DNA of 64,000 bases, taken from Kitasatospora mediocidica KCTC 9733. GTDB taxonomy: Bacteria > Actinomycetota > Actinomycetes > Streptomycetales > Streptomycetaceae. How positions within the stretch are numbered: position 1 is the stretch's first letter; each line of letters opens with the position of its first letter. A program made the position numbers and the translations under genes. Positions 25,201-38,063 of this stretch are shown here, piece after piece. The notes under the pieces are model-generated. The model made no database searches. It saw only the letters and a list, made by a program, of their open reading frames with translations, and had not been told where the DNA came from. The stretch spans positions 2,379,001 to 2,443,000 of the forward strand of contig NZ_JQLN01000005.1 of the NCBI RefSeq assembly GCF_000744225.1. Reading direction: 5' to 3'.

Positions 25201-26132
25201 GCACCGTCGAGCAGACCGCGGCCGCGATCGGTCCCTGGGCCACGGCCGCCGAGGCGTACCAGCTGGTGACGGTCGATGTGCCGGCCGAGCACTGGATCGA
25301 GGCGCTGACCGCTGCCCGGGACACCCTCGGCCTGGCCTACTTCGACTGGTTGAGCGCGGTGGACGAGCTCGGCGAGGGCTTCTCGGTCTGCGCGCACCTG
25401 GCGGCCGCCGGTGACGGCGGCGCGGTGCGACACCTGCTGCTGCGCACCCGGGTGCCGCGCGAGGGCGCCTCGCTGCCGACGGCCGCGGACGTGTACGCGG
25501 GCGCGGGCTGGCACGAGCGGGAGACCCACGAGATGTTCGGGATCGGCTTCGAGGGCCACCCGCACCTGGTGACGCTGCTGCTGCCGGACGGCTTCGAGGG
25601 CCACCCGCTGCGCAAGGAGTTCGTGCTGGCGGCGCGGGTGGCCAAGGCCTGGCCGGGCGCCAAGGAGCCGGGCGAGAGCGATCACGGGGACGGCCCGGCG
25701 CGGCGCAAGATGCAGCCGCCCGGGGTGCCGGACCCGAACGAGTGGGGCCCGCTGAAGGGCACGCTGCCGCCGGTCGCCGAACGTCCGGCGCGCGGTGCGC
25801 GGGCGGCCCGCCCGGGGGCCGCTCCGGCGGCTGCCGCCGAGGGCGCGCCCGCGGTGCGGGCGGACCGGCCGCGGCGGACCCGCAGCATCACCGAGGGGTC
25901 GACGAGCCAGGCCGCCGAGGCCGCTCCGGTCGCTCCGGTCGCTCCGGTCGCTCCGGTCGCTCCGGCTTCTCCGGGCTCTCCGGCCGAAACCCCGCCCGCC
26001 GCGCCCGCCTCGGACGCTCCCTGGCACTCCCCGGTGCCCGCGCGGGCGGAGCCGGAGCCGAAGGCGGCACCCGAGGACAGCCCCGCAGAGACCCCCCAGG
26101 AAACACCGGCCCAGGACGGAGACAGCGCGTGA
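25197..26132 (+). CDS. nuoC: NADH-quinone oxidoreductase subunit C with long low-complexity tail
   Basis: A 311-residue protein. Residues about 10-150 are a normal NuoC (30 kDa) domain with the [10 protein letters not shown] and GHPLRKEF signatures. The remaining 150 residues are a Pro/Ala-rich, probably disordered tail with no NuoD motif, so this is not a NuoCD fusion. Inside the tail, four exact 9-bp units (gctccggtc, 25923-25958) encode APV repeats. GTGA overlaps link it to nuoB and nuoH. Confidence 0.9.
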
Positions 26133-32350: not shown

Positions 32351-33964
32351 ATGATCAGCTCTGTGTCCGCGCCTGTGTCCGCCGCCGCCGGCCACCAACT
32401 CCTGGGGCAGCCCGCTGTGCATCCGACCCTTCTCGCCGTGAGCAACCCGGGCGGGCTCATCCAGTCCGTCGACTGGGTGGCCATCGCCCCACCGCTGATC
32501 GCCGCGCTGACGGCGATCGCCGTCCTGCTGGCCGACCTGTTCCTCCCGGAGCGGCACAAGAAGCTGCTCGGCCGGCTCACCGCCGCCGGCCTGGCCCTCG
32601 CCCTGCTCGCCCTCCTCCCGCTCACCGGTGGTCACCCTCGGTCCACCTTCTGCCTACAGAACGTAGCAGGCGCCACTGACAACGCCGGGTGCAGCTATGT
32701 CGCCGACCACTTCGCCCTGGTCTTCCAGCTGCTCGCGCTGGGCGGCGCGCTGATCGCCGCGCTGCTGTCGCTGCACACCGTCGACGAGGAGAAGCTGCCC
32801 TCCGGCGAGTACTGGTTCCTGCTGCTCAGCAGCGCCACCGGCGCCGCCCTGCTGCCCGCCTCCCGTGACCTGGCCACCCTGGTGGTGGCCCTGGAGGTGG
32901 TCTCGCTGCCCTCCTTCGCCCTGGTCGGGCTGCGGCGCGACGGGCGCGGCGGCGAGGCGGCGCTGAAGTTCTTCCTCTCCTCGGTGACCGCGACCGCCGT
33001 GATGCTGCTCGGCGTCAGCTTCGTCTACGCCGCCACCGGCAGCCTGCACCTGTCCGCCATCGCCGAGGGCCTGGGCCAGGCGCCCGGGCAGCTCAAGCCG
33101 CTGGCCGAGGCGGGGGCCGCGCTGACCCTGGTCGGCTTCGCGTTCAAGGTCGCGGCCGTCCCGTTCCACTTCTGGGTGCCCGACACCTACACCGGCGCCC
33201 CGCTGCCGGTGGCCGGCTACCTCTCCGTGGTCGGCAAGGCGGCCGGCTTCGCCGGGCTCGCGCTGGTCACCAGCATCGCCTTCCGCCCGTACGGCCACAC
33301 CTGGGGCCTGCTGCTCGCGGTGCTGGCCGCCGTCACCATGACGGCCGGCAACGTGGCGGCGCTGCGCCAGCGCTCCGACACGGCGCACGGCGCGGTGCGG
33401 CTGCTGGCCTGGTCCTCGGTGGCCCAGGCGGGCTACCTGCTGGTCCCGCTCGCCGCCGCCGGCTACGCCGGGAGCGACCACCCGCTGGGCGCCACCGTCG
33501 CCTACGCGCTGATCTACGGCCTCGTCAACCTCGGGGCCTTCGGGGTCGCCGCCCTGGTCGGGCGCACCGCGCCCGCCAACCGGCTGGACGACTACCAGGG
33601 CCTGTTCGCCCGCCGCCGCTGGGCCGCGCTGGCGCTGGCCTTCTTCCTGCTCTGCCTCGCGGGGCTGCCGCCGGGCGTGGTCGGGCTCTTCGGCAAGGTC
33701 GTGGTCTTCCGCGCCGCCGTGGACGCCGGCCTCGGCTGGCTGGCCGTGGTGATGGCGGTCAACGTGGTGATCGCGCTGTTCTACTACCTCCAGTGGACCG
33801 CGAAACTCTTCGTCACGCCGTCGACCGAGCCGATCGCGACGGCCGGGGAGGCGAGGGTGCCGCTCTCGCTGACCGCCACGCTGTCGCTCACCGCGGTCGG
33901 CGCGGTGGTGCTCTCGGTGGCGCCGCAGCTGGTGCTCCAGGTGGTCAGCGGCTCGCTGTTCTGA
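32351..33964 (+). CDS. nuoN: NADH-quinone oxidoreductase subunit N
   Basis: A 537-residue proton-pump subunit and the last nuo gene. Landmarks are ALEVVSLPSFALVGLRR, KVAAVPFHFWVPDTYTGAPLPVAGYLS and the LAWSSVAQAGYLL segment. It begins 3 bp after the nuoM stop, so translation is coupled. It is followed at 117 bp by htpX, the arrangement known downstream of the partial nuo cluster of streptomycetes. Confidence 0.95.
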   Translation: MISSVSAPVSAAAGHQLLGQPAVHPTLLAVSNPGGLIQSVDWVAIAPPLIAALTAIAVLLADLFLPERHKKLLGRLTAAGLALALLALLPLTGGHPRSTFCLQNVAGATDNAGCSYVADHFALVFQLLALGGALIAALLSLHTVDEEKLPSGEYWFLLLSSATGAALLPASRDLATLVVALEVVSLPSFALVGLRRDGRGGEAALKFFLSSVTATAVMLLGVSFVYAATGSLHLSAIAEGLGQAPGQLKPLAEAGAALTLVGFAFKVAAVPFHFWVPDTYTGAPLPVAGYLSVVGKAAGFAGLALVTSIAFRPYGHTWGLLLAVLAAVTMTAGNVAALRQRSDTAHGAVRLLAWSSVAQAGYLLVPLAAAGYAGSDHPLGATVAYALIYGLVNLGAFGVAALVGRTAPANRLDDYQGLFARRRWAALALAFFLLCLAGLPPGVVGLFGKVVVFRAAVDAGLGWLAVVMAVNVVIALFYYLQWTAKLFVTPSTEPIATAGEARVPLSLTATLSLTAVGAVVLSVAPQLVLQVVSGSLF

Positions 33965-34081
33965 CCCGGGCGTGACCCCACCGGTGTACGCGAAGGGAAC
34001 CAGGACCAGGCACCCCTCCGTTGACCAGGGCAGAGGGATGTGAACCGAGGGCTTCCCACCGCACCATTTGGAGGGCCTGCC

Positions 34082-34942
34082 GTGCACCGCCAGCACAACG
34101 GGTTGAGAACGGCCGTACTGCTCGGCGCCCTGTCGGCACTGATCCTGCTGATCGGCGGTCTCTTCGGACGGACGGGCCTGATCATTGCCCTGCTGGTCGC
34201 GCTCGGCACCAACGGCTACGCGTACTGGAAGAGCGACACGCTCGCCCTGCGCGCCATGCGGGCCCGCCCGGTCAGCGAGATCGAGGCTCCGGCCCTCTAC
34301 CGGATCGTCCGCGAGCTCTCCACCTCAGCCCGCCAGCCGATGCCCCGGCTCTACATCTCGCCGACCCCGGCCCCGAACGCCTTCGCGACCGGCCGAAACC
34401 CGCGCAACGCCGCCGTCTGCTGCACCGACGGCATCCTGCGCCTGCTGGACGAGCGCGAACTGCGCGGCGTCATCGGCCACGAGCTGAGCCATGTCTACAA
34501 CCGCGACATCCTGATCTCGTCGGTGGCCGGAGCGCTGGCCTCGGTGATCATGTTCCTGGTGAATTTCGCCTGGCTGATCCCGTTCGGCCGCGACGAGGAC
34601 GACGACGGACCCGGGCTCGTTGGCACCCTTGCCATCATGATCCTGGGCCCGCTCGCCGCGATGCTGATCCAGCTGGCCGTCAGTCGGTCCCGGGAGTACC
34701 AGGCGGACGCCGACGGCGCCCGGATCACCGGCGACCCGCTCGCACTGGCCAGCGCGTTGCGCAAGCTGGAGGACGGCACCCAGCGCCTGCCGCTGCCGCC
34801 CGAGCCGCAGCTCCAGACGGCCAGCCACATGATGATCGCCAGCCCGTTCCGCCCGGGCGAGGCGGGCACCCGGCTGTTCTCCACGCACCCGCCGATGGAG
34901 GAGCGGATCGCCCGGCTGGAACGGCTCGCCGGGCGGGGGTAG
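34082..34942 (+). CDS. htpX: HtpX-like M48 membrane metalloprotease
   Basis: A 286-residue zinc protease of the inner membrane that removes damaged or misassembled membrane proteins. Two N-terminal helices (about 8-27 and 31-46) precede the zinc site H133-E-L-S-H137 (GHELSH), with third ligand E205 in EYQAD. A second hydrophobic pair covers about 144-167 and 181-200. The GTG at 34082 is selected because GGAGGG at 34069-34074 is 7 nt upstream. The position after nuoN suggests a role in membrane-protein quality control near the respiratory cluster (inference). Confidence 0.93.
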
Positions 34943-34983
34943 CGTCGGCCCGTACCCGGCTTGCGAGACCAACGGAGGACGAC

Positions 34984-35280
34984 GTGTTCGTCGTGACCAT
35001 CACCTACACCGCGCCGCTGGAGCGGATCGACGCGCTGCTGCCCGCGCACGTCGGGTGGCTGGAGACGCAGTACGAGGCCGGCGCCTTCCTCGCCTCCGGC
35101 CGGCGGGTCCCGCGGGTGGGCGGCGTGATCCTGGCCGACGCCGAGAGCCCGGCCGCGCTGGACGCGATCCTGGCCGGGGACCCGTTCGCGCAGGCCGGGG
35201 TGGCCGAGTACCAGGTGACCGAGTTCCTGCCCACCAAGACCGCGCCCGCGCTCGCCTCGCTGGCCGTGACGCTGCCCTGA
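34984..35280 (+). CDS. YciI-like (YCII) protein
   Basis: A 98-residue alpha/beta ferredoxin-fold protein. The family pattern is clear: a VVTITYTAPLERIDALLPAHVGWLE start, the GAFLASG turn and the DPFAQAGVAEYQVTEF end. Family members have a His-Asp pair and are linked to small-molecule chlorohydrolysis or unknown roles. The GTG at 34984 has GGAGG 4-8 nt upstream. It is 41 bp after htpX and probably co-transcribed. Confidence 0.85.
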   Translation: MFVVTITYTAPLERIDALLPAHVGWLETQYEAGAFLASGRRVPRVGGVILADAESPAALDAILAGDPFAQAGVAEYQVTEFLPTKTAPALASLAVTLP

Positions 35281-35405
35281 GGGTTCGCTCGGCCGGGTGC
35301 CGTATGTCATGTCCGCCTCATCAAGCGTTCACCTCCGGGGGAAGGTGAGGGGGTGGAGGCGGCGCCGCAGGCGGTGGCCCGCCCGGACGGCCCGGGAGGC
35401 CTGCT

Positions 35406-37050
35406 GTGTGCGCCGACGAGACCTGCTCGCACCACGGATCCGGCGTCGACCCCGTCGTCGACCGGCGCCGGCTGCTCCAGGCCGGGCTGGGGACGGGAGC
35501 GGCAGCGGCGCTGGTCCTGGCCCCGGTTTCGTTCGCCGCCGCCGATCCGGCCGGCGCGGACCGTACCCAGCTGATCACCGGCCATCTCGATACGGTCCGC
35601 CGCCGATCCGGCCGGCGCGGACCGTACCCAGCTGATCACCGGCCATCTCGATACGGGGGCAGCCGACTTCGTCTACCTGCCGATCGAACTGCCGCACGGT
35701 GTCCGGGAGATCGCCGTCACCTACAGCTACGACAAGCCCGGGGTGCCGGCCGGAACCCCGGGAAACTCCTGCGACATCGGCATCTTCGACGAGCGCGGCA
35801 CCGATCTCGGCGGCCCGGGTTTCCGCGGCTGGTCGGGCGGGTTCCGCACCTCGTTCGCGATCAGCCGGACCGAGGCGACCCCCGGCTACCTGCCGGGCCC
35901 GGTCAACGCGGGCCGCTGGCACGTGGTGCTCGGCCCGTACCAGGTGGCGCCGCAGGGCCTGGACTACCAGGTCCAGGTGACCGTGCGATTCGGCACCCCC
36001 GGGCCGGACTTCAAGCCCGACTACCCCGCCGGCCGGGCCCGCGGCCGGGGCCGCGCCTGGTACCGGGGCGACTGCCACCTGCACACGGTCTACTCGGACG
36101 GACGGCGGCTCCCCGCCGAGGTGGCCGCCGGAGCGCGCGCCGCCGGGCTGGACTTCATGGTCTCCACCGACCACAACACCAGCTCCTCGCACGGCGTCTG
36201 GGGCCCGCTGGCCGGCCCCGACCTGCTGATCATCACCGGCGAGGAGGTCACCACCCGCAACGGCCACTGGCTCGCGCTCGGCCTGCCGCCCGGCACCTGG
36301 ATCGACTGGCGCTACCGCTCCCGCGACGACGCCTACCCGCGCTTCGCCCGCCAGGTGCACGGCCACGGCGGCCTGGTGGTGCCCGCGCACCCGTTCTGCC
36401 CGTACATCGCCTGCCAGTGGAAGTTCGGCTACCAGGGCGCCGACGCGGTCGAGGTGTGGAACGGCCCGTGGACGTACGACGACGAGTCCGCCGTCGACAG
36501 CTGGGACGCCCGCCTCGGCGAGGACCTGCGCAGCGGCCGCCCCTGGCTGCCCGCCCTCGGCAACAGCGACGCGCACAGCGTGCCGCAGGTGATCGGCCTG
36601 CCCCACAACGTGGTGCGGGCCGACGACCTGAGCCGGGACGCGATCATCGGCGGGCTGCGCTCGGGCCGCAGCTGGATCGCCGAATCCGCGGGCGTCCAGG
36701 TGGACTTCACGGCCACCGGTGCCGGTCGGCAGGTGGGCATCGGCGAGTCGCTGACCGTCCCGGCCGACGCCCCGGTCGACGTCCGGCTGGTGGTCTCCGG
36801 GGTGCCCGGCGGCACCGTCCGGTTCATCACCGACGAGGGCCAGCTCCACCAGGAGTCACTGCCCGCCGCCGGTACCGGCGCGGTGACCTGGCGCACCACC
36901 GCCTCGCTCGCCGCCTACGTCCGCGCCGAAGTCCGCCACCCGCTCCCGGACGGCACCCCCGGCGCGGGCAACACCATGGGCACCACCCTCCCGTGGGGCC
37001 CGATGGCCGCCCTCACCAACCCGATCCTGCTGCGCGGCACCACGGGCTGA
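35406..37050 (+). pseudogene. CehA/McbA-family PHP metallohydrolase, frameshifted by a tandem duplication
   Basis: The gene begins at GTG 35406, with GGGAGG 6 nt upstream. It encodes a twin-arginine-like signal (DRRRLLQAGLG, then a hydrophobic stretch ending VSFAAADP). The frame is then broken, and the rest of the protein continues in the next frame to 37050. The cause is a 61-bp tandem duplication (35536-35656). Removing one copy leaves a continuous 527-residue protein. The downstream part has a complete PHP metal site: DCHLHT, DHN, GEEVT, PAHPF and GNSDAH. Family members include carbaryl hydrolase and exported phosphoesterases. The downstream fragment alone has no good start until GTG 35743, with no ribosome site. 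Either an inactivated gene, a reversible off-state, or an assembly error. Confidence 0.88.
35536..35656. repeat. Exact 60-bp tandem repeat, period 61
   Basis: Copies 35536-35595 and 35597-35656 are identical over 60 bp, with a single extra T at 35596 between them. The period of 61 shifts the reading frame by one. Each copy covers the mature N-terminus of the PHP hydrolase gene, just after the signal peptide. Confidence 0.97.
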
Positions 37051-37511: not shown

Positions 37512-38063
37512 TCAGGCGACCGCCTCGCGCAGTGCGCCGAACTCCGCCGCCAGCGCGTCGAGCGTGTAGTGCGCGTTGAGGCCGCTGGGGTTCGGCAGCA
37601 CCCAGACCTCGGTGTCGCCCAGCCCGTCCGGCTGCCGGCCCACCGTGCTGCGCGGGCGGCCGAACGCCGTCCGGTACGCGCCGATGCCCAGTACGGCCAG
37701 CGCCCGCGGTCGTAGCCGGGTCACCCGCTCGACCAGCGCGGCGCCGCCCTGGCGGAACTCGTCCGCGGTCAGCTCGTCCGCCTTCGCGGTGGCCCGGGCG
37801 ACCACGTTGGTGATGCCCAGGCCCAGCGCGAGCAGCTGCTCCTGCTCCTCGGGCCGGTACTGGTGGTCGGTGAACCCAGACCGGTGCAGGGCCGGCCAGA
37901 ACCGGTTGCCGGGCCGCGCGAAGTGCCGGCCGGTCGCTCCGGACCAGAGCCCGGGGTTGATGCCGCAGAACAGCACCCGCAGGCCGGGGGCGGCGATGTC
38001 GGGGATGGTCACGTCACGGGCGGCGAGGAGCTGCTCGGCGGTGGGCCGGAGGGGAGTCTGCAC
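37512..38063 (-). CDS. mug: G/U mismatch-specific DNA glycosylase (Mug type)
   Basis: A 183-residue uracil-DNA glycosylase superfamily member that removes U or thymine/etheno-bases from mispairs. It has the active-site GINPGLWSG (near residue 34, Asn as the catalytic position of the Mug family) and the PNPSGLNAH intercalation motif (near residue 158). Short and cytoplasmic, as expected. Confidence 0.92.
   Translation of the reverse strand: MQTPLRPTAEQLLAARDVTIPDIAAPGLRVLFCGINPGLWSGATGRHFARPGNRFWPALHRSGFTDHQYRPEEQEQLLALGLGITNVVARATAKADELTADEFRQGGAALVERVTRLRPRALAVLGIGAYRTAFGRPRSTVGRQPDGLGDTEVWVLPNPSGLNAHYTLDALAAEFGALREAVA

Follow-up and report, generated by a model that had tools for sequence, protein, structure and literature searches.

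In the genome of Kitasatospora mediocidica KCTC 9733, a perfect 60-bp tandem duplication with one additional base at its junction appears to break the reading frame just behind the signal codons of a gene for a predicted Tat-exported metallohydrolase of the CehA/McbA type. The lesion lies in the 64,000-nucleotide stretch of contig NZ_JQLN01000005.1 that was analysed here (positions 2,379,001 to 2,443,000, forward strand; hereafter the window), and coordinates are given by position in this window. Taken as a whole, the explanation that we regard as probable is that the duplication is recent and private to this genome, that it turned the gene off, that it arose through a hairpin-templated event, and that the gene could be restored, with no regulated switch being involved.

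The repeat was examined by a repeat search and by TRF. The search of the window recovered two copies of 60 nt each, at positions 35536-35595 and 35597-35656 of the + strand, that were 100% identical and spaced at 61 bp, with a single extra T at position 35596 between them. TRF ranked the same repeat at the top of its 10 rows for the window (period 61, 2.0 copies, 100% matches, score 242), and the exact 61-bp-period duplication with one intervening T described in the first-pass annotation was thus confirmed by both approaches. Given that a G precedes copy 1 and that a G also follows copy 2, the T at 35596 is part of neither flank. When near-tandem repeats were required to overlap exactly over 25 nt or more and to leave a gap of no more than 10, only two remained in the window: the 61-bp-period repeat and, at 25922, an array with a 9-bp period. 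About 1.24 Mb of the 8.68-Mb genome, a sample that included the window, yielded two near-tandem repeats with longer exact overlaps, of 339 nt (period 123) and 68 nt (period 51), and both of these periods are multiples of 3. The 123-bp-period array, whose exact self-overlap of 339 nt was the longest in the sample, lies at L152:8112 (G000:C5, about 2,048,112). The 301-bp region around the 61-bp-period repeat occurred in full once in the genome, and three further weak matches of 50-58 bp were found elsewhere.

From its GTG at 35406 to its stop at 37050, the gene spans 1645 bases; subtraction of 61 leaves 1584, or 528 codons with the stop counted. This arithmetic agrees with the earlier claim that the 61-bp period disrupts the frame and that removal of one copy yields a single frame. 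The 5′ part (35406-35595, + strand), as aligned with Kitasatospora sp. MAA4 and three other species, carries in its own frame the GTG start, the DRRRLLQAG signal, and the mature N-terminus through copy 1. The start codon was GTG in MAA4, GP82, and GAS204B, and ATG in S. tateyamensis. Ahead of GTG 35406, a GGGAGG at 35394-35399 (+ strand), read from the sequence as a likely ribosome-binding site, has the same letters in MAA4. DRRRLLQAG is followed by a hydrophobic stretch, a combination judged by eye to be a Tat-like signal, and directly behind that stretch come the AAADP codons, where the duplication starts. A clean ribosome site and a Tat-like signal had both been proposed in the first-pass annotation; the GGGAGG is a likely candidate for the former, and the latter is supported, its RR motif and the start aligning with MAA4 and the three other species. 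A wrong gene model was rejected on the basis of the conserved start, the conserved signal, and the full ORF in relatives. The first-pass annotation had also named relatives that all carry two copies together with intact ORFs as a sign of a wrong gene model; when this was checked, the relatives had single-copy ORFs.

Past copy 1, the frame opened by GTG 35406 encodes nonsense sequence; it bypasses the stop at 37050 and ends at 37715 in a different frame (769 aa). The 3′ part of the gene (35657-37050, + strand), which encodes the CehA/McbA metallohydrolase domain, motif residues included, and ends with the stop, is read in the other frame, and its conserved portion is open for 435 aa from GTG 35743 to 37050. 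This second frame contains a stop codon inside copy 1, after which the first ATG, GTG, or TTG start is GTG 35743, an internal start that falls within the conserved domain and lacks a signal. Translation from GTG 35406 would therefore be expected to yield the signal peptide, some 40 further residues, and then a long out-of-frame tail. For the catalytic part, the first in-frame start would be GTG 35743, and its product would carry no signal. Because no signal-bearing catalytic protein could be made without a frameshift, the CehA/McbA gene is most likely silent in the culture that was sequenced.

The identity of the gene rests on its 3′ part. The 435-aa sequence scored 218.6 bits with NF038032 (CehA/McbA family metallohydrolase; cut-off 80), in keeping with the earlier assignment to this family; searches of the same sequence at E ≤ 0.001 returned 0 Pfam families and 0 PDB chains. 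Residues H112, H114, D119, H144, E167, E168, and H216 were present in 105/105 distinct orthologue sequences (the remnant L229 being excluded), and E237, D276, and H278 in 104/104. These conserved histidines and acidic residues, which we take to be a PHP-like metal-binding site, are intact in the 3′ frame of the window gene, which supports the full PHP metal site noted previously at the level of its motif residues. Four NF038032 matches were found in the genome, and only one, the broken gene itself, exceeded the family cut-off; a back-up copy elsewhere in the genome was therefore rejected at that cut-off. With its domain score far above the cut-off and its motif histidines and acidic residues kept, the window gene resembles the CehA/McbA family. 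However, the characterised CehA and McbA are described in the consulted part of PMC8292978 as carbamate (carbaryl) esterases, members that cleave carbamate esters; the phosphoesterase activity proposed in the first-pass annotation for the product of the window gene is a guess.

To place the lesion among relatives, the genus was searched in 70 genomes including its own, and the locus was examined in 50 of the 69 others. The nearest relative found, among the best 80 loci from a scan of named genomes, was Kitasatospora sp. MAA4 (93.5% aa identity). In the alignment, MAA4, S. tateyamensis, GP82, and GAS204B each had a single copy of the unit with no T on either side, and the idea that the T is ancestral and has since disappeared from the ends of the unit was rejected for that reason. 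A single ORF from the RR motif through the end was found in 47 of the 50 other genomes, and the duplication in none (0/50). The distance from the nearest RR to the GxL motif ranged from 33 to 56 residues in these 47 intact genus orthologues; the duplication thus struck a linker that tolerates variation in length but not a change of frame. A test for tandem repeats in the 5′ region was given 158 loci, of which 157 matched, many being the same locus twice. Among the 157, it raised one flag, L053, which was low-complexity sequence at a contig edge. The test was partial for L019, L040, L141, L044, L130, L053, and L093, where the contig starts shortly upstream, and for L079, where the 5′ region is absent. 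In this last locus, from Kitasatospora sp. MAP5-34, no match was found ahead of MAA4 residue 188.

Three of the 50 relatives had no single ORF. In G015 (L217) the frame changes near MAA4 residue 453, in G063 (L228) it changes near MAA4 residue 328, and in G006 (L229) there is a 50-residue remnant corresponding to MAA4 residues 84-133 only. Together with the truncated orthologue in MAP5-34, these cases make the gene seem dispensable and repeatedly lost, or else those assemblies contain indel errors. The gene order nuoN, htpX, and PHP gene (window 32351-37050) was shared by 6 of the 28 loci examined; the varied surroundings elsewhere imply that the gene moves about within the genus.

Several lines of evidence argue that the lesion is young, as had been suggested before. 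The two copies differed at 0 of 60 sites, while dS to MAA4 was 0.164 for the CehA/McbA gene (0.126 for nuoN and 0.135 for htpX); had the duplication been as old as the split from MAA4, about nine differences between the copies would be expected at a neutral rate. A second break was sought in the downstream 435 codons and was absent. Over those codons, the polarised changes numbered 11 N and 17 S on the window branch, compared with 11 N and 21 S on the MAA4 branch (the rest being unpolarised or other), and selection on the window gene does not look relaxed. With identical copies despite a dS of about 0.16, no further break, and substitution counts like those of MAA4, an old pseudogene was rejected. 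A laboratory mutation, as the lower limit of age, is a possibility.

The junction itself offers a clue to how the duplication arose. Positions 35591-35600, which contain the extra T, are a perfect 10-bp reverse complement of positions 35556-35565, so that the two stretches form the right and left arms of an inverted repeat that spans the junction. Of the four possible junction bases, T alone gives this 10-bp junction-spanning inverted repeat, and it is absent at either unit end in MAA4. When duplications were simulated on the strain's own genome, 13/4000 reached 10 bp with a partner within 100 nt and 3-base arms, and 8/4000 did so within 60 nt; under a relaxed arm rule the corresponding counts were 30/4000 and 20/4000, and in a first simulation on window DNA the count was 9/3000. 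The inverted-repeat test was post hoc, having been chosen once the junction had been seen. With the T, the copied unit gains an inverted repeat of a length that simulated duplications rarely reach, and these data suggest, post hoc, a hairpin-templated polymerase switch as the preferred origin. By this route, a new strand ending in TACGG during replication would fold back onto the CCGTA of its own 60-bp unit and copy five bases, namely the extra T followed by CCGC; the CCGC would then re-anneal to the unit start 60 bp back, whereupon the unit would be copied twice. The new bases extend a nearby inverted repeat, as expected of quasipalindrome template switching, in a test that was post hoc and with a weak pre-event hairpin. 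In the pre-event junction proxy (copy 2 into its right flank), the fold had a z of +1.11, and 170 of 200 shuffled sequences folded equally well or better, from which we infer that the starting hairpin would be a short 5-bp stem only; a strong fold (z of −2.70 and −3.25) was seen only in post-duplication sequence.

The same lesion could also have come about through a staggered double-strand break whose ends were filled in and then joined by Ku/LigD, a single T being added without a template. Ku is encoded in the genome (160.9 bits; cut-off 25), as are two LigD polymerase domains, which scored 258.7 and 251.4 bits (cut-off 214.7), and the junction is of a blunt type with a single added base. However, end joining does not predict a base that completes a 10-bp inverted repeat, an outcome expected by chance at the low simulated frequency given above (13/4000). 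An added T is equally explicable as templated, and as a Ku/LigD signature it is therefore ambiguous. Ku/LigD joining has a fair claim to be the main rival for the origin, and we consider it somewhat unlikely. Simple slippage accompanied by a further change could also account for the lesion. The unit and its flank differ in their outermost bases, but the two share GCCGA, a direct microhomology of 5 nt, in register 5 bases inside (at the start of the unit and immediately behind copy 2). The lesion resembles the microhomology-mediated tandem duplications of ssp1 in fission yeast (Dan et al. 2021; via the portion of PMC13207564 consulted) in being local, coding, and of a reversible type. The ssp1 duplications are described there as bounded by pairs of microhomology, whereas the window unit has no outermost match, carries an extra T, and has its GCCGA inside.

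Returning to the preferred reading, in which a true and recent duplication silenced the gene, the remaining alternatives concern whether the second copy exists, whether the gene is really silent, and whether its silence is regulated. If the second copy were an assembly or consensus error, the chromosome would have one copy and an intact gene; a two-copy perfect repeat with an odd base in one assembly only, missing from all relatives with an examined locus, is what such an error would look like. We consider it unlikely, given that the assembly has 7 contigs, including contigs of 2.73, 1.60, and 1.02 Mb, which suggests long reads that would easily span 121 bp, that the neighbours nuoN, htpX, yccF, mug, and yajQ have full-length open frames, and that the sampled genome showed no excess of exact non-triplet duplications of similar size. 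A mutation that arose in culture is a further possibility. It is highly improbable that a working enzyme is still made, either by ribosomal frameshifting, which would add 20 residues, or from the internal start without the signal. The range of linker lengths in the intact orthologues implies that added length alone would be tolerable, and the 435-aa 3′ ORF is open, but such an arrangement is conserved in no relative, GTG 35743 is inside the conserved domain, and no slippery motif was noted by eye.

The first-pass annotation had further suggested an on/off switch, in which toggling between one copy and two would vary export of the enzyme. The geometry fits, as the repeat is exact over 60 bp, adjacent, has a period that is not a multiple of 3, and breaks the frame from within the ORF, as in switching by intragenic duplication. 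Spontaneous duplications of this kind have been reported in the pneumococcal capsule genes cap3A, cap8E, and tts, which vary by them (Waite et al. 2001, 2003; PMC4022640, in the part consulted). The pneumococcal cases are alike in that a short perfect tandem duplication inactivates an ORF and can revert by copy loss; they differ in that both states and reversion are reported there (PMC4022640), whereas the window offers one genome, one state, and an extra junction base. Silencing of this reversible kind is thus established for the pneumococcal genes, and the window case is an ordinary instance of a tandem duplication that would inactivate its gene, perhaps reversibly. A phase-variable switch is nevertheless very unlikely here: one assembly shows one state, the 3 of 50 relatives with broken copies of other kinds fit a pattern of simple loss, and the repeat does not recur in any of the 50, although recurrence is not strictly required of a switch, as duplications can arise anew. 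The proposal of an on/off switch thus went unsupported, and an evolved switch was rejected, the repeat being private to the window assembly. Another reading, which we hold to be quite improbable, combines a two-step template switch with a reversible off-state of the sole CehA/McbA gene over the cut-off, such that cultures would mix exporting and non-exporting cells; if true, an actinomycete would naturally phase-vary an exported hydrolase through a mechanism that leaves its own molecular signature.

Adjacent perfect repeats can be lost through slippage or recombination. As the copies are long, identical, and adjacent, loss of one could restore the gene at some frequency, and the lesion is plausibly reversible. 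For pneumococcus, the consulted part of PMC4022640 gives an expected reversion of about 1e-5 or less for insertions of up to nine bp, a figure that does not apply to this repeat length. The lesion is a clean example of how a short perfect tandem duplication can silence a gene; an automatic pipeline would annotate the result as a pair of odd ORFs or as a pseudogene. Should both states prove to coexist in one culture, the locus would serve as a simple, PCR-sizable reporter for events that duplicate or delete DNA in a high-GC actinomycete. In its present form, it tells little about the enzyme's biology.

The region directly 3′ of the intact PHP gene in MAA4 (L210:7410-9480) had a feature of its own. 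There, yccF matches the window YccF (PF03733) only to residue 42 of 133. It is followed, on the opposite strand, by a 654-aa ORF for a large serine recombinase, with Resolvase, Recombinase, and zinc-ribbon domains over their cut-offs and a C-terminal part that matches DUF4096, a domain of IS4/5 transposases. In MAA4, an integrative element thus seems to have entered yccF.
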